A stretch of 37,527 nucleotides of DNA from assembly GCA_022340345.1 (NCBI GenBank), contig JAJDOE010000068.1:1-37527 (forward strand), given 5' to 3'. The DNA comes from Gammaproteobacteria bacterium. GTDB lineage: Bacteria; Pseudomonadota; Gammaproteobacteria; HyVt-429. A model generated the notes under the pieces. That model ran no database searches and was not told where the DNA came from. It was given only the letters and a program-made list of their open reading frames with translations. The position numbers were made by a program, and so were the translations under genes. Below are positions 4,399-23,832 of the stretch, in pieces (position 1 is the first letter of the stretch; each line of letters begins with the position of its first letter).

Positions 4399-4412
4399 GC
4401 AAACGATGTTGC

Positions 4413-4447
4413 GGCGCCGGTTCCGCTTCGGGGCCGGCGCCCTTTTT
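4413..4447 (+). terminator. Rho-independent terminator of the symporter gene
   Basis: GGCGCCGG at 4413-4420 pairs perfectly with CCGGCGCC at 4434-4441, and inner CCG/GGG bases can extend the stem. A run of five T follows at 4443-4447. It lies just after the symporter stop codon and so isolates the symporter from icd. Confidence 0.85.
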
Positions 4448-4543
4448 CGTCCTGGGTTCAGCAGCGACCCGGCGGGCAAATGGAGCGATTTGCACGGCTT
4501 TGATACACTCCGCGCCCGCCCCGCCCTTCGGAGACCACGCCCG

Positions 4544-6304
4544 GTGAAACACGTACAGCTCCCCGCCCACGGCGAGAAAATTCGCATCGAGAAGGGTCGC
4601 CCGATCGTTCCGGATCAGCCGATCATCGGCTACATCGAAGGGGACGGGATCGGGCCGGATATCACCCACGCCTGTCTGCGGGTATGGGACGCGGCGGTGG
4701 AAAAGGCATACGGCGGCAAGCGCCGCATCGCCTGGTGCGAGTTATTCCTCGGCGAAAAGGCCGCCGGCCTGTACGACGGCGACTATTTTCCCGCTGAGAC
4801 GCTTGACGCGATCCGCGACCTGCGGGTTGCCATCAAAGGACCCCTGACCACCCCGGTGGGCGGCGGTTTCCGTTCCCTGAACGTGTCCCTGCGCCAGGAA
4901 CTGGACCTGTACGCCTGCGTACGACCGGTCCGCTACTACGCCGGTGTGCCCTCGCCGCTTTGTTCTCCCGAGGACGTGGACGTGGTGATTTTCCGGGAAA
5001 ACACCGAAGACGTATACGCGGGTATCGAGTACCGCAGCGGCAGCGACGAAGCGGAAAAACTTTCCCGCTTCCTGCGAGAGGAAATGGGCGCCGAATTTTT
5101 CGACCAGGCCGCCCTGGGAATCAAACCGATCAGCCCTTTCGCCACCCGGCGACTGGTGCGCAAAGCCATTCAGTACGCTATCGACAACGATCGGGAAAGC
5201 GTCACCCTGGTACACAAAGGGAACATCATGAAGTACACGGAAGGCGCGTTCCGCAACTGGGGTTATGAAGTCGCAAAGGCCGAGTTCAGTGACCGGCTGA
5301 TCACCGAGGAACAGCTCTACACCGAGTACAACGGCCGCCAACCGGAAGGCAAGATCGTGATCAAGGACCGTATCGCCGACATCATTTTCCAGCTGCTGCA
5401 GTTGCGTCCTGCGGAGTTCGACGTGATCGCCACCATGAATCTCAACGGTGACTACCTTTCTGATGCCGCGGCTGCGGAGGTCGGTGGCGTAGGCATCGCT
5501 CCCGGGGCCAACATCTCCGACGAGATCGCGGTGTTCGAGGCCACCCACGGAACCGCGCCCAAGTACGCCAATCAAAACAAAGTCAATCCCTCGTCGTTGC
5601 TGCTGTCCGGCGTAATGATGCTGGAGTTTCTCGGCTGGAAGGAAGCAGCAGTCCTGATTAACGCCGCGTTTCCAAAGGTAATCGCCGACCGTACCGTTAC
5701 CTATGATTTTGCCCGTCAGATGGAAGGCGCCATTACCGTCAGCACCAGCGGCTTTGCCGATGCGCTCATCGCCAAAATCACCAACGAGGCGGATGACCTC
5801 GCGCGATTCGAGGAGGAACGTCGCCGGGCGGTACTCGCCCAGCGGGAGGAGCGCGAAGCCAAGCGTATCGCCGACCCGATCCGTGCGATGAAGGATTCCG
5901 GCCGCCAACCACGAACCGCAGCGGGCGTCATGTCTCCAATGCGTTCCCTGCCGGCAGACACCACGATTGCGGACGCCACCCGCTACATGCGGGAGAACGG
6001 CTTCTCCTCGGTGCTGGTGGAACCCGGCGACGACGGCGTCTGGGGCATCATGACCGAGCACGATGTAGTTTCCCGCATCGTCGGCGAGAACCGCGCGGCC
6101 GCCGCGATCCAGGTGGGCGAGATCGCCAGCAAACCCCTGGTCAGCGTTCCGCCGGACACCGGCCTGACGGACGTTGCCTCGCTGATGAACGAGCGCGATT
6201 TTCGCCGCGTTGCGGTAACCGAGAACGGGCAGCCGATCGGCGTCATTTCGGAATCCGATATCTTCCGGGTCGTCGAAGAGTTCGGCTGGCGCCCGGAAGA
6301 ATAG
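4544..6304 (+). CDS. icd: NADP isocitrate dehydrogenase with C-terminal CBS domain pair
   Basis: Oxidises isocitrate to 2-oxoglutarate and CO2 with NADP+ in the TCA cycle. Residues 1-410 follow E. coli Icd closely. The NADP-binding set K340, Y341, V347, Y387 and R391 equals E. coli K344, Y345, V351, Y391 and R395, and S111 equals the AceK-phosphorylated Ser113. A charged, Glu/Arg-rich helical linker (about 411-460) leads to two CBS domains at about 463-517 and 524-580, so the protein is 586 residues instead of about 416. CBS pairs usually bind adenine nucleotides, so allosteric control by energy charge is inferred. The GTG start has GGAG ten bases upstream and gives an N-terminus aligned with E. 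coli Icd. An earlier in-frame ATG at 4406 lies in the terminator and is rejected. Confidence 0.93.
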
Positions 6305-6329: not shown

Positions 6330-8003
6330 ATGCCCGCCCTGCGCCCTCCCCGCATCCTGCTTTTTGACTGGCATGCCACCCTGGTGGACACGCTGGACGC
6401 GATGTATGCAGCCGTCGATGAAATGCTTACCCAGATCGGACCGCTGGGCCTGGCGCAGCGGCTGGCCCCGGTTTCCGACTGCAAGACCATCGACGACGCC
6501 AAGCTGGTGGCCTACGTACACCAACACCACGCGCTGCACCCAAAACTGCGTGCCGAACGGCGGGTATCGCGGACCGATATCTTCGAGGTGTTGTTCGGTT
6601 CCGACGCCGCCGCCAAGCAACTGGCTCACGAGGCATTCAATGTTTGCTACCGCCGCCATTTCGGTGAGGTTCGGCCCTTCGAGACCGGTATTCCACAACG
6701 ACTGCGACGACTACGCGCGGAAGGCGTGCGGCTCGGGATCGCCAGCAATCGCTCCCGGGAATTCCTGGAACACGAACTGGAACGGCTCGGAGAAGACTGG
6801 GTCGGGTTGTTCGATGCCATCGCCTGTGGCGACGACGCCACCTGGCACAAACCCAACCCGGAAGTACTGATCCGCGCCCTGGACGATCTGTATGCGGTCC
6901 CGGCCACCAATGTCTGGTACGTGGGCGACTCCACCACAGATATTGCCGCCGCTGGCAAGGCGGGGTTGAGCAGCATCTTTTACAACGGCGCGAACTGGGA
7001 CGATGGCTGGTTGCGCAAGATTTTCCCGGGCTCGGTCGAGCACCCCTGGCTGCCGGACTCGGTGGTCGACGATTTCGAGGAACTGGAAAAATTGGTGGTC
7101 TGCTGTATCCGCCACGCCCTGGACAACCGGGATTGCAACGAGCGTACCGAGCGCCTGTTCAGCAGCTTTTTCCCGGAGTGGCAGAACACCAGCGTGCTGG
7201 CGCCGCCGCGTTTTATCCTGTTTGACTGGCATGCCACGCTGGCGGACACCCTCGACGCCATGTACCGGGCGGTGGATGACCTGTTGCCGCGATTCGATGA
7301 GCTCGGCCTGACCGGGCGGCTCATTGACCCGGCGAAGAGCAAGACCGTGGAAGATGCCAGACTGGTAGAGTACGTCCGCGACCGCAAGCAATTGCACCCG
7401 AAGATCAAGGCGGACCGCAAGATCTCGCGCACCGACATCTTCGAAGTGTTGTTCGGTTCCGATGACGAAGCCAAGCGCATCGCTCACCACGCCTTCAATG
7501 AATGTTATCGGCGCCACTTCGGTGCGGTGGTTCCTTTCGAGCCCGGCGTGCGGGACATGCTGGTGTACCTGAAGAAACTGGGAATTCGCGTTGGCGTGAT
7601 GAGCAACCGGGACCGGGAATTCCTGGAACACGAATTGGAAATCATCGAGGACGGCCGCTGGAAGGATCTCTTCGACGTCGTGGTGGGAGGCGATGAAACC
7701 CGGCGGCGAAAGCCCTTTCCGGATCCGATTCTCAAGGCCATTGAAGACGTGGGCGAGAACCCCGGTCTGCATTGCTGGTACGTGGGCGATTCCACCACCG
7801 ACATCATCTCCGCCCGGCGCGCGGCGGTGACCAGCGTGTTCTACAACGGCGCCCACTGGGATCCCCGCTGGATCATGAAGATTTTTCCGGGCACCCGTGC
7901 GCACCCCCACCAGCCTCACGTGGTGATGGACAGCTTCGCGGAGTTTCGTGAACTGGTTCGCCTGCACCACGGCAAAGTGGCTGACAGCGACGCCGCCCCG
8001 TGA
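6330..8003 (+). CDS. Tandem-duplicated HAD-superfamily hydrolase
   Basis: A 557-residue cytoplasmic protein of two full HAD domains (about 1-260 and 288-545) that are clearly similar to each other. Each has motif I as DWHAT (nucleophile D13 and D299), motif II Ser in ASN/MSN (S139, S425), the motif III Lys (K174, K461) and motif IV GDSTTD (199-204, 486-491). The second Asp of the usual DxDxT is His in both copies, so the general acid/base differs from standard HAD phosphatases. Both also share SRTDIFEVLFGSD and CYRRHFG in the cap region. The gene starts 25 bp after icd and overlaps the next permease gene by 4 bp. The substrate is unknown; phosphatase or another phospho- or halo-substrate hydrolase are options. 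Confidence 0.85.
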   Translation: MPALRPPRILLFDWHATLVDTLDAMYAAVDEMLTQIGPLGLAQRLAPVSDCKTIDDAKLVAYVHQHHALHPKLRAERRVSRTDIFEVLFGSDAAAKQLAHEAFNVCYRRHFGEVRPFETGIPQRLRRLRAEGVRLGIASNRSREFLEHELERLGEDWVGLFDAIACGDDATWHKPNPEVLIRALDDLYAVPATNVWYVGDSTTDIAAAGKAGLSSIFYNGANWDDGWLRKIFPGSVEHPWLPDSVVDDFEELEKLVVCCIRHALDNRDCNERTERLFSSFFPEWQNTSVLAPPRFILFDWHATLADTLDAMYRAVDDLLPRFDELGLTGRLIDPAKSKTVEDARLVEYVRDRKQLHPKIKADRKISRTDIFEVLFGSDDEAKRIAHHAFNECYRRHFGAVVPFEPGVRDMLVYLKKLGIRVGVMSNRDREFLEHELEIIEDGRWKDLFDVVVGGDETRRRKPFPDPILKAIEDVGENPGLHCWYVGDSTTDIISARRAAVTSVFYNGAHWDPRWIMKIFPGTRAHPHQPHVVMDSFAEFRELVRLHHGKVADSDAAP

Positions 8004-9205
8004 ACCGGCCGCTGCCGCTGGTCGCACTCATGTGCCTGGCCCAAGTGCTGAGCATGGCGGGTTTCGCCACCTACGCCACGGTGCTGCCGGAGCTGCAGCT
8101 GAGCTGGGGATTAAGCAATACCCAGGCCGGCTGGATCGCCAGTGCCTTTTTTGTCGGCTACGTGGTGGCGGTACCGCCACTGGTGGGTCTGACGGATCAC
8201 AACGATCCGCGCCGCATCTGGCTGGCGGGCGCACTGTTTGCGGGACTCGGAAATGCCGGATTCGCCTGGCTGGCAAGCGACCTGTGGAGTGCCACGGCGT
8301 TCCAGGCGCTGGCGGGTGCGGGCCTCGCCGGCACCTACATGCCGGGACTGAAGATGCTCACCGACCGGCTGCCCCACGAGATCGCAGTTCGGGCGACTCC
8401 CTATTACACCGCCACCTTCGGCATCGGCACTGCGCTCTCCTACTGGCTGGCCACGCATGCCAGCGACTGGTCGGACTGGCGCGCCGCTTTCACAGTAGCC
8501 GCCGCGGGAACGCTACTGGCGGCCGTCTTGGTGCTACTCAGCATACCGCCCCGTGCGGCCACCACGGGCGGCAGCAGACACCCCCTGAATTTCCTGCCGG
8601 TGCTGCGCAACCCGGCGATCCTCACCTGGTCACTGGCCTATGCCGGGCACTCCTGGGAACTGCTGGCCCTGCGTGCCTGGCTGGTGGCGCTGCTGGGTTT
8701 CAATCTGGCCCGGCAGGGCACCGATCCCGGCGCCTGGGATCCGGGCAACGTCGCCACGCTGGTGGCCCTGGGCGGGGTTCCGGCGAGCGTACTGGGCGCG
8801 GAAATCGCGCGGCTCATGGGGCGCCGGCGCACCATCCGCGTGGTAATGGCCATTTCCCTTCTGCTGGCAGTGGCGCTGGGAGCGGCGGCCGGCGGCTCCT
8901 ACCGGTGGCTCGCGGGGCTGGCGCTGGTCTATAACGTGTTCATTCTGGCCGACTCCGGCGCGATCACCGCGGGCGTGATCCATTCCACGCCGGCGGACCT
9001 GCGCGGTGCCGCCATGGCGGTGCACAGCATCCTGGGCTTCTCCGCCGGCATCGTGGGACCGCTGGCGGTGGGCCTGGCACTGGACCTGGCCGGTGGCGGT
9101 GATTCGGTGTTTGCGTGGCTGCTGGGTGTCATTACAATCGGCCTGGGCTCAATCCTGGGCCTGCTGGCCCTGAGCGCGGGACGCCAACCCGGTGAACGAA
9201 TATGA
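8000..9205 (+). CDS. MFS transporter (first of a tandem pair)
   Basis: A polytopic inner-membrane protein of 401 residues with about twelve hydrophobic helices and a cytoplasmic loop after helix 6 (residues near 190). The loop after helix 2 reads LVGLTDHNDPRRIW, a form of the MFS G-x-x-x-D-x-x-x-R-R motif. The GTG start overlaps the HAD stop in GTGA, and its own stop overlaps the next start in ATGA, so the three genes are almost certainly translated together. Substrate and direction of transport are unknown. Confidence 0.85.
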   Translation: MNRPLPLVALMCLAQVLSMAGFATYATVLPELQLSWGLSNTQAGWIASAFFVGYVVAVPPLVGLTDHNDPRRIWLAGALFAGLGNAGFAWLASDLWSATAFQALAGAGLAGTYMPGLKMLTDRLPHEIAVRATPYYTATFGIGTALSYWLATHASDWSDWRAAFTVAAAGTLLAAVLVLLSIPPRAATTGGSRHPLNFLPVLRNPAILTWSLAYAGHSWELLALRAWLVALLGFNLARQGTDPGAWDPGNVATLVALGGVPASVLGAEIARLMGRRRTIRVVMAISLLLAVALGAAAGGSYRWLAGLALVYNVFILADSGAITAGVIHSTPADLRGAAMAVHSILGFSAGIVGPLAVGLALDLAGGGDSVFAWLLGVITIGLGSILGLLALSAGRQPGERI

Positions 9206-10398
9206 CTGAACACGCCCGCCGCCGCCTGTCCCTGGCCTTCTCCGCCGCCGGGCACGCCACCATGCACCTGCTGACGGCGTTCTTCTTCGTCATCGTGCTG
9301 GCGCTGGAAAACGAGTGGCATCGTCCCTACCACGAGCTGATCGAACTGTGGACCATCGGCGCCTTGCTGGTAGGCGTGGTGGCCGTGCCGGTGGGCTGGA
9401 TCACCGACCGCTGGCACGCCCCCGGCATGCTGACCATCATGTTTCTCGGCCTGGGCGTGTCCTGCCTGGGTTGCGCCCTGGCGGACGGCTCCGTATCCCT
9501 GTGGTGGGGCCTGACCGCGCTCGGCGTGTTCGCCGGCATTTACCACCCGGTGGGCATTCCGTGGGTCGTGCGTACCAGCCAGGCCAGCGGCAAGGCGCTT
9601 GGCCTGAACGGGATTTTCGGTGGCTTCGGCGTGGCCGCCGCCGGTGGCCTGACGGGTTTTCTCACCGACCAATTTGGCTGGCAAGCGGCCTTCGCGGTTC
9701 CCGGCGTGGTGTGCTTGCTGATCGGAATTGCCCTGGGGATCAGCACCCTGCGCGGCTGGGTGGACGACGGCGATCGCAACATCCGCCGTACCCAGCATTC
9801 CCGCGGCGACATGCTGCGCTCTTTCGCCATGCTGGCGGTGACCATGTTCTGCCTGGGTTTCATCTACCAGGCCAGCCAGACCGCATTTCCCAAGGTCTTC
9901 GACGTGCGCCTGGAACACTGGCTCGGCGAAGGGACCCTCGGCGTGGGAATGATCGTGACCATGGTCTACGGCGTGGCGGCGGTCATGCAGCTGGTGGGTG
10001 GCCACCTCGCCGACCACTATCCCCTGAAGCGTGTCTACCTCGGGGCGATCCTGATCCAGACCCCGGTACTGGTGTTCCTGATCCTGGCCGCGGGACTGCC
10101 GCTGATCGCCGCGGCAACCCTTTCCGTGCTGCTGAGCACAGCGGCCCTGCCATCGGAAAACATGCTGCTGGCGCGCATCACCCCGCAAAAGCATGTGAAC
10201 CTGGCCTTCGGCGTCAAGTTCATCCTCGCCTTCGGCGCCGCGCCGGCGGCGATCGCTTTTGTCGCCTGGATCAACGGAACCACCGGCGGCTTCGAGTGGG
10301 TGTTTGGCACCATGGCGATTCTGGCGGCGATTTCCGCAATGGCAGCCATGGCACTGCCGGGGGATCGTCCGCTGGAGGAACAGACCAGCTCCGCATAG
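9202..10398 (+). CDS. MFS transporter (second of a tandem pair)
   Basis: A 398-residue membrane protein with the MFS helix pattern. GWITDRWHAPGML after helix 2 is the family's conserved loop, GHATMH is in helix 1 and GIYHPVGIPW is near helix 4, reminiscent of Fsr-like or sugar-phosphate-related MFS members. It is not a close copy of the upstream permease, so the pair may be two transporters for related compounds rather than a recent duplication. The ATGA overlap with the previous gene shows translational coupling. The last gene of the unit; a hairpin follows at 10418-10448. Confidence 0.85.
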   Translation: MTEHARRRLSLAFSAAGHATMHLLTAFFFVIVLALENEWHRPYHELIELWTIGALLVGVVAVPVGWITDRWHAPGMLTIMFLGLGVSCLGCALADGSVSLWWGLTALGVFAGIYHPVGIPWVVRTSQASGKALGLNGIFGGFGVAAAGGLTGFLTDQFGWQAAFAVPGVVCLLIGIALGISTLRGWVDDGDRNIRRTQHSRGDMLRSFAMLAVTMFCLGFIYQASQTAFPKVFDVRLEHWLGEGTLGVGMIVTMVYGVAAVMQLVGGHLADHYPLKRVYLGAILIQTPVLVFLILAAGLPLIAAATLSVLLSTAALPSENMLLARITPQKHVNLAFGVKFILAFGAAPAAIAFVAWINGTTGGFEWVFGTMAILAAISAMAAMALPGDRPLEEQTSSA

Positions 10399-16045: not shown

Positions 16046-17416
16046 TTACAAATCCTTCGGCCGGATCAGTTCGTTGACGGTGCTCGCCTCCCCCGCGGTA
16101 AGCGCCGACCAGGAGCCGTTGAACGCGATGCGCGCCAGGCTCGCAGTCGGCAGGAATTTGCCATCCGCCGGCTCGGTCACGCCCAGGTGGCGCGCCAGGT
16201 CCTCAAACCCCGGGTTGTGTCCGACCAGTAACAGGCGGCGGACCACATCCGGCGTTTCCCGTAGCACCCCCAGCAGCCGGTCCAGGTCCGCCAGGTACAG
16301 GCGCCGGTCAAATTCAATGCGCTCGCCACCGAACCCCACTTCCTCGCAGGCGGCAATAGTCGTCTGCCAGGCCCGCAGGGCCGGCGAGGCACGCACGAAG
16401 TCCGGCACCCAGCCCTTTTCGCTGAGCAGCTGACCCACCCGCGGGGCGTCTTCGCGCCCGCGCCGGTTGAGGGGTCGCTCGAAATCGCTGCCTGCACCGC
16501 TATCCCAGTCCGACTTGGCGTGGCGCAGCAGCAGCAGTTCGTGATCGTGTTGCATGGGCGCCTCCCGGGCGGGCTCGCGCAGCCCGTTGATCAGTTCGAT
16601 GAGCTCCCGATGGTAGCCGAGTTTGCGGAACTTTCTGAGTGCGCTGCGGACCTGCTTGCGATAGGCCGTTTCCGTACCCCGCAGCCAGGCGAGAATCGCA
16701 TCCGCCGCAGCCGGTTTGTATTCCGGAACCAGGGCATCCCGGTAATCAAGGATCAGGCGTTGCTGCACGCTGCAGTCCTGGATTCCGCCCAGCGCATCCT
16801 GCAAGGCGCGACAGCAGCGCAATACCTTTTTTGGCGCCCGTCCCCCCGGGGTATCGAACTCCAGCAGATAACGAAAACGTTTGGCCGACTTGCGCAAGCG
16901 GTGCAACTCCACCGCCGGAGCTCCCGGACCGGCGGCCCGCAGGTCCCGGTTAAGGTGTGCGAAGGCCAGCCACAGTGACTCGGCCGCCTGCTCCCGCAGG
17001 TCCATTTTACGACCGGGCTTGGCCAGCCGTTGCCAGCGCTTCAGGATCTGCGCGTAGCGCTGGTCGTCCAGGCACGCCAGCAGCCGGGCAACCGATCGTT
17101 CGCGCTGCTCCGCCACGGCCGTAACCAGTCGGTCGAGACCGGGAACCGGTGGTCCGGCAGTGGCGCGAAACTCCGCCAGCCGACCCAGTAGCAGATCGTG
17201 GTCGCGGGCCGCGGTTGCCGCGGTAAGCCACCGCAAATCCCGTGACAACCGTCGCGCCGGGCGCCCGCCCAGTTCCCGGAGCGCCACGCGGCCGCGCCGC
17301 AGCGTCACCCGGAAACGGTGCAGGATGTCCGGGTCCTGATCGGCGCGTATGGCGGGCAACAGCTCCCGGTGGCAGGCCAACTGCCGGGCGAGGATGGCGG
17401 GGAGATCGGGGCGCAT
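16046..17416 (-). CDS. CHAD domain fused to SixA-type phosphohistidine phosphatase
   Basis: A 456-residue protein of two parts. Residues 1-285 form an Arg- and His-rich helical CHAD domain, with the two hallmark segments LHRFRVTLRRGR (32-43) and LHRLRKSAKRFRYLL (171-185). Residues 290-456 form a histidine phosphatase of the SixA type with LLRHAKSDWD (catalytic H299), R349 in SPALRAWQT and H400 in LVGHNPG. SixA removes phosphate from phosphohistidine of signalling or PTS proteins; CHAD domains bind polyphosphate. The fusion suggests a link between polyphosphate and phosphohistidine control, which is inference. GGGAGGA precedes the ATG. It is convergent with Kbp and divergent from dnaE2, with 143 bp between. 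Confidence 0.88.
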   Translation of the reverse strand: MRPDLPAILARQLACHRELLPAIRADQDPDILHRFRVTLRRGRVALRELGGRPARRLSRDLRWLTAATAARDHDLLLGRLAEFRATAGPPVPGLDRLVTAVAEQRERSVARLLACLDDQRYAQILKRWQRLAKPGRKMDLREQAAESLWLAFAHLNRDLRAAGPGAPAVELHRLRKSAKRFRYLLEFDTPGGRAPKKVLRCCRALQDALGGIQDCSVQQRLILDYRDALVPEYKPAAADAILAWLRGTETAYRKQVRSALRKFRKLGYHRELIELINGLREPAREAPMQHDHELLLLRHAKSDWDSGAGSDFERPLNRRGREDAPRVGQLLSEKGWVPDFVRASPALRAWQTTIAACEEVGFGGERIEFDRRLYLADLDRLLGVLRETPDVVRRLLLVGHNPGFEDLARHLGVTEPADGKFLPTASLARIAFNGSWSALTAGEASTVNELIRPKDL

Positions 17417-20685: not shown

Positions 20686-22272
20686 ATGTTGGCCGACGCA
20701 AAAACCGTAATGAACCGGGTCTGGACGGATCCCGCCTTCGCACGGGTGGTGCTGTACTGGTACCTCGCACTCCTCGCGGTGCTGGGTGCCTTAACCGTGT
20801 GGTTCTTCCCCAGCTACGCCTACCCTTTCGGCGACGAAAACCAGTACTACAGCCAGGCACAGCATCCCTGGACCCTGATCCCGGATATCTTCGAGGGCTA
20901 CCCGGTCAAGGAAATCACCGACCTGTATGCCAAGCGGCTGTTCCTCTGGCCGTTCGCCGCGGTATTCGCGATCTTCGGTTTTAGCCTTCTGGGGGCGCGA
21001 CTGGTGGTCCTGTTCTGGGCCTTATTGCTGGCCTATTTCACGTTCCGAATCGTCGAGCAAATCAGCGGCCACCGGCAGGCCCTGCTCGGCGTCGTGGTGA
21101 TGTCCTTCACCCCCATGTTTCTCTACCTGTCCCATGGCGTGCGTCCCGAAGGCCTGTTCACGCTGTTCCTCGTGATCGCCCTGTGGCTGGTCATCCGCGC
21201 CGCGCACATCACCTGGAAGACCTACGCGGTGGTCGCGTTCGTTGCTTCCTGCACCTTGTGGATCCACTACAACGGCGTACTGATGCCACCGTTGTTCTTT
21301 ATCGTGCTGCTGGCCTATGACCGGGGCCGCAGCTGGAAAAAAGTCGGAGGATTTATCCTGGGTGGCGTCGTCTTCCTGGCCTTGTTCGTTCCGATCAGCG
21401 TCCTGCCCGCCACCGAGTTCCTTCAGCGCTACGGATTGAGCCCGGAGACCCACGAGTCCTCCAAGCAGATTCCGGTCCTGGAGACCCTCGACTGGGCGCG
21501 TGTGCTGTTCGACTCCTATTCCTATTACCTCCGGCAACTGGTGGACAGCGCCTTTGGCGGTTGGTCCCACGCCCTGATCATCGGAATTTTCGTCCTGTCC
21601 CTGGTCGGGCTAATGGCGCCGCAGGCCGATCGGCGCTGGCGACTGCTGAAGATCTATTTCCTGGCCATGCTGGTAGTGCTGTTTTTTGTCGTGCCCAACC
21701 GGCGACTCGAATACCTGTTCTACCTGTATCCGGTCATGATCCCGCTGGCGATCGCCGGCCTGCGCAATGCCCGGGTTCCGGCGGGCCGGGTGCTTGGCGT
21801 GTTTGCCGGCCTGTGCCTGCTGTACGGTGTTTTCGCTTACCAGTTGATGAGCGTGCACTGGAACCGGCACCAGGCCAGCCAGGAAATCGCGGCACAGCTT
21901 AGCAAGGTGATCGCGGAGTACGGAAAGCCGGAATCGGTCCGCATCGTCGGTCCACAGCAAGCGAATATCCTGGCCATGGGGACGCAATACCGGACCCTGC
22001 ACGCAATCATCCAGACCCGCAGCTTTCTGAAGGCAATTCTCCGGCTGCACCCCCACATCGTGCTGCTCAACAACGCTATGGCCGGCTTTGTACTTCGGGT
22101 CGGCGGGCAGGATCAGGCCTCGATACCGCAAACCCGTGCGCGCATGGCACAAACGCTCCGAAGCCTGGGATTCCGGGAACAAAAAATCGTTATGGACGGT
22201 GCCTACTGGATGTCGATTTTCCGGGCGCCCAGGAAGAGGCCGGACCCGGAAAGTCGAAACGGCGCCCCCTGA
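20686..22272 (+). CDS. GT39-type membrane glycosyltransferase, copy 1
   Basis: A 528-residue polytopic protein of the ArnT/PMT-like GT-C superfamily, which moves a sugar from a lipid carrier to a target on the outer face of the inner membrane. The first long periplasmic loop has the acidic pair D50-E51 in YPFGDENQYY, the place of the GT-C catalytic acid; HGVRPEGLF, WIHYNGVLM and NRRLEYLFYLYP are other blocks. About ten or more helices run to residue 410, then a soluble C-terminal domain of about 120 residues. GGGAGAG precedes the ATG. It is clearly paralogous to the next gene, three bases downstream. The substrate is unknown. Confidence 0.85.
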   Translation: MLADAKTVMNRVWTDPAFARVVLYWYLALLAVLGALTVWFFPSYAYPFGDENQYYSQAQHPWTLIPDIFEGYPVKEITDLYAKRLFLWPFAAVFAIFGFSLLGARLVVLFWALLLAYFTFRIVEQISGHRQALLGVVVMSFTPMFLYLSHGVRPEGLFTLFLVIALWLVIRAAHITWKTYAVVAFVASCTLWIHYNGVLMPPLFFIVLLAYDRGRSWKKVGGFILGGVVFLALFVPISVLPATEFLQRYGLSPETHESSKQIPVLETLDWARVLFDSYSYYLRQLVDSAFGGWSHALIIGIFVLSLVGLMAPQADRRWRLLKIYFLAMLVVLFFVVPNRRLEYLFYLYPVMIPLAIAGLRNARVPAGRVLGVFAGLCLLYGVFAYQLMSVHWNRHQASQEIAAQLSKVIAEYGKPESVRIVGPQQANILAMGTQYRTLHAIIQTRSFLKAILRLHPHIVLLNNAMAGFVLRVGGQDQASIPQTRARMAQTLRSLGFREQKIVMDGAYWMSIFRAPRKRPDPESRNGAP

Positions 22273-22275
22273 CCC

Positions 22276-23832
22276 ATGTTCGCGCAAATTCTGCGGCAGC
22301 TGCACCGATTCCGTGCCGAGCCGGCGCTCACCCGGTCCGCATTCTGCTGGTACCTGGCCGGCCTGGGAGCGTTCGGGCTCGCCACCCTGTGGTTCTCGCC
22401 ACCCTATTCCTACCCCTATGGTGACGAAGGCACCTATTTCAGCTACGCACTGCATCCGTGGAGCCTGATCAGCGATTTCTTCGAAGGCTACCCGCCAAAA
22501 GAAGTGGTCAACCCGTACAACGCCCGCCTGTTCCTGTGGCCCTTCTCCGCCGTATTCGCCATTTTCGGTTTCACCGTATTTGGCGCAAGGGTGGTCGTAC
22601 TGTTGACCGCGCTCGCCCTGCTGTACTTCAGCTACCTGCTGGTGGAGCGCCTGAGCACACCGCGCCAGGCCCTGCTGACCGTCGTCCTGTTTTCCCTTTC
22701 TCCCGCCTTTTTTTTCTACTCACACGGCGTGCGCCCGGAAGGCATGATGGCCCTGTTTGTCACGCTGTGCCTGTGGATCACGCTGCGGGAGGAGAAACCC
22801 CGGACGCGTACGTGGTTCACCGTCGGATTGCTGTCCTCGAGCATGCTCTGGATCCACTACAACGGCGTGTTGATGCCACTGGTCTTCTTCGTGGCGCTGC
22901 TGGTCTACGACGCGCAACGAAACTGGCGCAAGGTCGCCGCCTTCTTAGCTGGCGGACTGGTTTTCGTGGTGGTATTCACGTTGCTCAACCTCCTGCCTGC
23001 GCTGGACACGCTGCGGGGCTACGGTCTGCTGCCGATCACCTACGAGTCGTCCAACGCGATCCCGATCCTGCAGACCCTGGACTGGAGTCGGGTTCTGCTG
23101 GAGTCCCTGGCCCGCTACGCACAACTGGCAGCCGCCAGCCCAATCAGTCGCTGGGCGATCACGCTGACCCTGGTGGTGTCCGGCCTGGCATTCGTCGGCC
23201 TGCTGCAAAAATCGCCAAATCGCCGCTGGCGGACGGTCAAAACGGTACTGGTCGGAATCCTCCTGCTGCTGCTGTTCGTGTTTCCCAATCGCCGCCTGGG
23301 CTACCTCTTCTACATCTACCCGGCCCTGTTCGCCCTGGCGATTTTCGCGCTGCGCACCGCCCGGATACCGGACACGCGGACCCTGGCGCTGGTGGGGGCC
23401 CTGGCTGCCGGCTACCTGGTCAACAATGCCACCCTGCTTCGGGGCCACTGGCAGCGCCACCAGGATCATCAGCAGGTGGAGACCGAATTGCGTTCAGCGA
23501 TCGAGCACCTGGGGCCGGCGAAAAGCGTGCGGGTCATGGGTACCCAGCACTTCCACGCCATGGCGGCGGACACCCGCTACCGGACCTTTCACTCCATCAT
23601 CGCCAACGGCAGCATCAGCGCAACGGTGCGCCGCATCAAGCCGGATATGGTCATCATCGACGAGAACGCAGTCCGGTTCCTGGCGCACGTACACCAGTAC
23701 CAGAAATCCTTTCGCCAGGTACGGGAGCAGACCATGCGGGAGCTTCGTGGAATGGGCTTCACCGAACAGAAGGTCTTCGTGCGCGGGCTGCACTGGTTGT
23801 CCCTGTTCCGGGCGCCGCGGAAGATCCCGTGA
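22276..23832 (+). CDS. GT39-type membrane glycosyltransferase, copy 2
   Basis: A 518-residue paralogue of the previous protein, colinear over its whole length: D50-E51 again in YPYGDEGTYF, with ARLFLWPFSAVFAIFGF, SHGVRPEGMM, WIHYNGVLMP and a C-terminal soluble part ending in a shared LHWLSLFRAPRK motif. The degree of divergence speaks for an old tandem duplication with possibly different sugar or acceptor. Its stop codon overlaps the GTG of the following hydrolase gene in GTGA. Confidence 0.85.
   Translation: MFAQILRQLHRFRAEPALTRSAFCWYLAGLGAFGLATLWFSPPYSYPYGDEGTYFSYALHPWSLISDFFEGYPPKEVVNPYNARLFLWPFSAVFAIFGFTVFGARVVVLLTALALLYFSYLLVERLSTPRQALLTVVLFSLSPAFFFYSHGVRPEGMMALFVTLCLWITLREEKPRTRTWFTVGLLSSSMLWIHYNGVLMPLVFFVALLVYDAQRNWRKVAAFLAGGLVFVVVFTLLNLLPALDTLRGYGLLPITYESSNAIPILQTLDWSRVLLESLARYAQLAAASPISRWAITLTLVVSGLAFVGLLQKSPNRRWRTVKTVLVGILLLLLFVFPNRRLGYLFYIYPALFALAIFALRTARIPDTRTLALVGALAAGYLVNNATLLRGHWQRHQDHQQVETELRSAIEHLGPAKSVRVMGTQHFHAMAADTRYRTFHSIIANGSISATVRRIKPDMVIIDENAVRFLAHVHQYQKSFRQVREQTMRELRGMGFTEQKVFVRGLHWLSLFRAPRKIP

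Follow-up and report, generated by a model that had tools for sequence, protein, structure and literature searches.

A conserved family of gammaproteobacterial HAD proteins with histidine in place of the second motif I aspartate, in two-domain and one-domain forms

The window analyzed here, a 37,527-nucleotide stretch from the genome of a gammaproteobacterium, contains on its forward strand a gene (6330..8003) that is open over 557 codons and encodes a two-domain HAD protein of 557 aa. An N-terminal HAD domain (residues 5-259; 6342..7106; 400 bits with the A1 profile) and a C-terminal HAD domain (residues 291-546; 7200..7967; 437 bits) are joined by an interdomain linker (7107..7199 by the A1 profile bounds), and the two halves are 54% identical over 255 residues (E value, 7e-101). 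Pfam HAD_2 (PF13419) matched the protein at 174.9 bits against a curated cut-off of 23.8, in two stretches, one per half. The usual motif I of HAD phosphatases is DxDxT. Here, motif I of both halves is FDWHAT, with His (H15 and H301) replacing the second Asp, in D13-W14-H15 (6366..6374) and D299-W300-H301 (7224..7232); both sets of columns are invariant in the alignment described below. The other catalytic positions are intact in both halves (motif II Ser, motif III Lys, and motif IV GDSTTD). The first-pass annotation had proposed two fused HAD domains with this substitution in each, and the paired HAD_2 matches together with D13/H15 and D299/H301 bear it out, as the ORF translation and half-versus-half alignment do for the shared motifs that it listed (DWHAT, ASN/MSN, Lys, GDSTTD, SRTDIFEVLFGSD, and CYRRHFG). 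Each half also carries a cap insert preceding SRTDIF, with approximate bounds of 6489..6566 (N half) and 7347..7424 (C half), as judged by alignment with FDWDNT-type relatives, from which it is missing. Read in reverse and codon aligned, 6330-8003 contains one stop.

Upstream on the same strand, a 632-aa isocitrate dehydrogenase-CBS fusion (4406..6304) ends 25 bases before the HAD gene. Downstream, also on the forward strand, a gene for an MFS transporter (8000..9205) shares the last 4 bases of the HAD gene and is in turn overlapped by a second MFS transporter gene (9202..10398). The first MFS gene is a possible operon partner of the HAD gene in this genome. We clustered the ORFs around 80 related loci (L020-L099) with nine window genes, using greedy longest-frame ORFs with antisense frames included. 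The largest neighbor cluster besides the family itself spanned 12 loci, and no listed cluster other than the family contained a window gene. The first MFS gene had no relative in this set, and neither it nor the isocitrate dehydrogenase-CBS gene fell in any cluster of at least four loci. Immediate neighbors across loci were mostly on the opposite strand or unrelated. Given the lack of a conserved neighborhood in the L020-L099 set, we rejected gene context as a guide to function. The source genome has a second isocitrate dehydrogenase copy, 59% identical, at C159, and genomes of the same family match the dehydrogenase part of the 4406-6304 product at about 59 to 60%. Elsewhere in the window, a single protein encoded on the reverse strand (16046-17416) fuses a CHAD domain to a histidine-phosphatase domain, and two adjacent membrane proteins of about 520 aa (20686-23832), similar by eye, are apparently tandem paralogues.

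In the class sample, a match at an E value of 1e-30 or better was found in 16 of 369 genomes, the window's own genome counted; the 16 matching places outside that genome are all one-domain frames, reading DWHAT (n = 15) or DWHGT (n = 1). In one genome of the collection (G213), there are two DWH genes of the one-domain form, each on its own contig (L013 and L019). In the phylum sample, 17 of 398 genomes matched at 1e-12, with two-domain frames in three other genomes (G427, G490, and G525) and a one-domain frame in G544; the remaining matches scored about 65 bits or less, leaving a wide gap below family members. A scan of named genomes returned 289 relatives, and the best 80 of these comprise 54 two-domain frames, 23 one-domain frames, 1 broken two-domain frame (L061), and 2 frames starting at a contig edge (L054 and L058), whose one-domain state is uncertain and which were counted as single in the 146-row alignment, tree, and conservation analyses below. 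Among the best 80, hosts of the two-domain form include Marinobacter, Sedimenticola, Hahella, Ketobacter, Mangrovitalea, and many uncultured gammaproteobacteria. The broken gene (L061:6444-8062) has its frame interrupted inside the N half, by either sequencing error or pseudogenization, and a two-domain gene on an Acidobacteria-labeled contig (L077:15-1910) clusters with gammaproteobacterial genes, representing either a transfer or a mis-binned contig. As tests of mobile spread, searches of plasmids gave no match at an E value of 1e-20, and viral contigs gave 88 pattern stretches, none of them a relative. The question of whether single-domain DWHAT proteins exist, raised in the first-pass annotation, is answered by these samples: they do, and two-domain proteins are widespread, occurring in at least 54 loci. 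The duplication is not confined to this assembly, contrary to one of the two outcomes that the annotation had named as refuting its reading.

To assess conservation, we aligned 146 domains (55 N halves, 55 C halves, and 36 single domains). Five rows that represented the same contigs as others were removed beforehand (L004, L008, L009, L010, and L012, equivalent to L023, L062, L079, L076, and L090), along with L061, because its frame is broken between the halves, and L002 and L003, which are ordinary HADs. The nucleophile Asp, Trp at +1, His at +2, Thr at +4, the motif III Lys, and both motif IV Asp residues are invariant in 146/146 domains, as is the Asn-Arg following motif II; motif II itself is Ser or Thr in all. 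A change of nucleophile in relatives, which the annotation had named as evidence against its reading, was thus not seen. Since the patterns used in the named-genome scan included DWHATL, C-half and single rows are biased toward that sequence. The N halves, however, were chosen independently of the DWHAT pattern, and all 55 carry the +2 His; the 16 class-sample places were likewise chosen independently, and all read DWHAT or DWHGT.

Both halves are under purifying selection, and strongly so in close pairs. In the 21 closest of the 33 listed two-domain gene pairs, dN/dS was 0.015 to 0.19 in either half; the other 12 pairs, with values up to 0.65, are distant and their dS is probably saturated in these GC-rich genes, and we did not rely on them. 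Mean identity was 0.564 among N halves versus 0.702 among C halves of the same proteins, with the N half lower in 1,473 of 1,485 pairs. The low dN/dS and the identity gap together indicate that selection preserves both halves, with tighter constraint on the C half. The annotation's preference for function over decay is supported by this dN/dS range and by the invariance of D, +2 H, T, K, D, and D across 146/146 domains. These data also bear on two local explanations of the second domain, an error of assembly or a duplicate decaying in this genome alone. The gene is absent at an E value of 1e-20 from all three other genomes of the source's own family, and the neighboring MFS gene was found in only this one of the four; however, the halves are just 54% identical, 54 public loci share the two-domain architecture, and both halves are under purifying selection. 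We regard such an origin as barely credible and rejected both an assembly artefact and a recent local duplication.

The same pattern of retention weighs on a noncatalytic role. The available text of one report describes PcrP (PA2803) as a HAD protein that has lost catalysis and binds proteins (PMC12632274), a precedent for a binding or scaffold protein of HAD descent, and a second, diverged domain could act as a binding platform. Nevertheless, a role like that of PcrP fits poorly, because PcrP is described there as lacking the catalytic residues, all of which but the +2 Asp are kept in both DWH halves under purifying selection. We consider a scaffold function quite unlikely.

Structure models support a capped HAD fold for the individual domains. 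The C-half model (pLDDT, 95.0) has a HAD core fold with a cap, and its top structural matches by VIA-align were tied: 3d6j (Z score, 21.9; root mean square deviation [rmsd], 2.8; 205 aligned), 2nyv (Z score, 21.8; rmsd, 2.9; 211 aligned), and 3kzx (Z score, 21.8; rmsd, 5.2; 201 aligned). The full-length model was less certain (pLDDT, 89.9; pTM, 0.57), with a linker pLDDT below 50 (residues 268-282). As to the covalent internal dimer suggested in the first-pass annotation, each half is well predicted, but their mutual arrangement is uncertain, and a dimer of the two halves is no more than possible.

We then considered how the two halves arose. In a quick tree of the 146 rows, a branch with an SH-aLRT of 88 separates the N halves from all other rows; the 36 single rows fall without exception with the C halves, the contig-edge row L054 sitting within a C-half group. 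A careful rooted tree of 51 rows, comprising 47 of the 146 plus four FDWDNT-type outgroup rows and not using L054 or L058, recovered C halves and single domains as one group (93/92) with N halves at the base; there, N halves need two changes and are united in only 13% of bootstrap trees. It could be that the long outgroup branch draws N halves toward the root. These topologies suggest that a single old duplication is likely. The one-domain proteins may be ancestral or may derive from loss of the N half, and the trees are compatible with either and with fusion once or more; an old duplication is the simplest reading. Because N and C halves separate and all 36 single rows fall with the latter, the C half appears to be the core, partnered by an N half that evolves faster.

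Outside relatives offer a view of the +2 residue itself. In the frames examined, motif I of the nearest FDW-type relatives is FDWD[NSDG][TV], and since they keep Asp at +2, His is the derived state, arising from Asp. The Ehrlichia chaffeensis protein of PDB entry 3kzx reads FDWYNT, so more than one change at the +2 position seems to have occurred in this HAD neighborhood. In the alignment with FDWDNT relatives, the DWH family is further distinguished by roughly 25 residues inserted in the cap before S-R-T-D-x-F and by additional conserved sequence ahead of the last strand.

What chemistry might a HAD enzyme perform with His at this position? The first-pass annotation proposed an altered acid/base chemistry, a proposal consistent with the sequence. 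In canonical HAD phosphatases, according to the available text of PMC8069645, the first Asp is the nucleophile and the second the acid/base of a two-step mechanism. With the metal and phosphate positions kept and His capable of acid/base chemistry, His-assisted hydrolysis appears most likely, and with moderate confidence we infer from the sequences that DWH is a gammaproteobacterial family of C1-cap HAD proteins acting as Mg-dependent phosphohydrolases with His as acid/base. In this family, His has replaced the second motif I Asp and become fixed. Asp 13 or Asp 299 would attack phosphorus to form a phospho-aspartate, and the His two residues further on would protonate the leaving group and then activate water. 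Phosphate and metal would be held by motifs II to IV and the substrate, most likely a small phosphorylated metabolite, would be set by the enlarged cap. The C half would serve as the conserved core of catalysis. The N half, putatively an ancient duplicate, retains the complete catalytic set, but its faster evolution makes a changed substrate, or else a regulatory or stabilizing role, probable. More speculatively, a single Asp-to-His change may have been followed by a two-headed enzyme, in which a diverging but intact N domain regulates the C domain or feeds it an intermediate, possibly as a long-lived phospho-aspartate switch; this elaboration we hold to be unlikely.

The main rival to His-assisted hydrolysis is that the +2 His is unable to activate water, so that dephosphorylation would be slow, leaving a long-lived phospho-aspartate suited to a phosphotransferase, mutase, or phospho-sensor. 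The residue replaced in 146/146 domains, with nucleophile and metal residues kept, is the one that the available text of PMC8069645 assigns as general acid/base of the second step, and beta-phosphoglucomutases are among the structural neighbors. Yet no curated enzyme family, mutase models included, was reached at its own cut-off, and this rival may be considered fairly unlikely from the sequences. It also has to contend with the fact that His is a competent acid/base. A different departure would be chemistry on something other than a phosphate ester, dehalogenase-like or phosphonatase-like. Structures of both kinds are among the structural matches, and both also lack Asp at +2, which is Tyr in dehalogenases and Ala in phosphonatases. 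However, phosphonoacetaldehyde hydrolase TIGR01422 scored 34.4 and 32.1 bits per half versus a cut-off of 220, and haloacid dehalogenase type II TIGR01428 scored 51.8 for the whole protein and 39.3 for the N half versus 125.4. Furthermore, the invariant motif IV Asp pair, which to our knowledge dehalogenases lack, fits Mg-dependent phosphoryl chemistry. Dehalogenase-like or phosphonatase-like activity is very unlikely on this evidence.

The DWH family is real and conserved, and it is uncharacterized among the literature matches listed, which contained no DWHAT or DWHGT HAD family and no two-HAD-domain enzyme and were swamped in part by misprints of "and what." HAD phosphatases are usually recognized by a motif that includes the +2 Asp. 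A large family with cultured members (Marinobacter, Sedimenticola, and Hahella) that carries His at +2 and keeps the rest offers a direct test of how HAD chemistry depends on this position. Relatives with Asp, and with Tyr in 3kzx, serve comparison of the residue's role, and the one- and two-domain forms provide a ready comparison for the role of the fused second copy.

Measured against known systems, both halves have the residues of the HAD superfamily in 146/146 domains (Asp nucleophile, motif II S/T, motif III Lys, and motif IV acidic pair) and depart from canonical HAD phosphatases at motif I +2, where His replaces Asp in 146/146. The best-scoring curated enzyme model was phosphoglycolate phosphatase TIGR01449, at 76.8 and 73.7 bits per half and 145.8 for the whole protein versus a cut-off of 180. 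Phosphoglycolate phosphatases (TIGR01449; PDB 2nyv and 2yy6) share the C1-cap HAD fold and motifs II to IV but have motif I DxD (FDLDGT in 2nyv) and chains of 213 to 222 residues, and so one domain. PcrP resembles DWH as a HAD protein that departs from the catalytic signature; unlike PcrP, which the available text of PMC12632274 reports as lacking catalytic residues and activity and whose subfamily is also marked by a truncated cap, the window protein keeps all but the +2 Asp and has an enlarged cap, which places it outside the PcrP subfamily as defined in that text. The top PDB profile match, 3kzx (E value, 1.1e-21; 22% identical), shares the FDW start and a +2 residue other than Asp, but that residue is Tyr, not His, and its 231-residue chain has space for one domain only. 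The nearest outside sequences are FDWDNT-type HAD proteins from other Pseudomonadota classes, for which we found no curated family; the weak phylum-sample matches, taken together, show 31 to 41% identity over part of the domain. They share with DWH the FDW start, the cap motif S-x-R-[DE]-x-F-P-x-x-F, and the motif IV W-F-[IV]-GD, and differ in having the canonical +2 Asp, no cap insert, and one HAD match per frame read.
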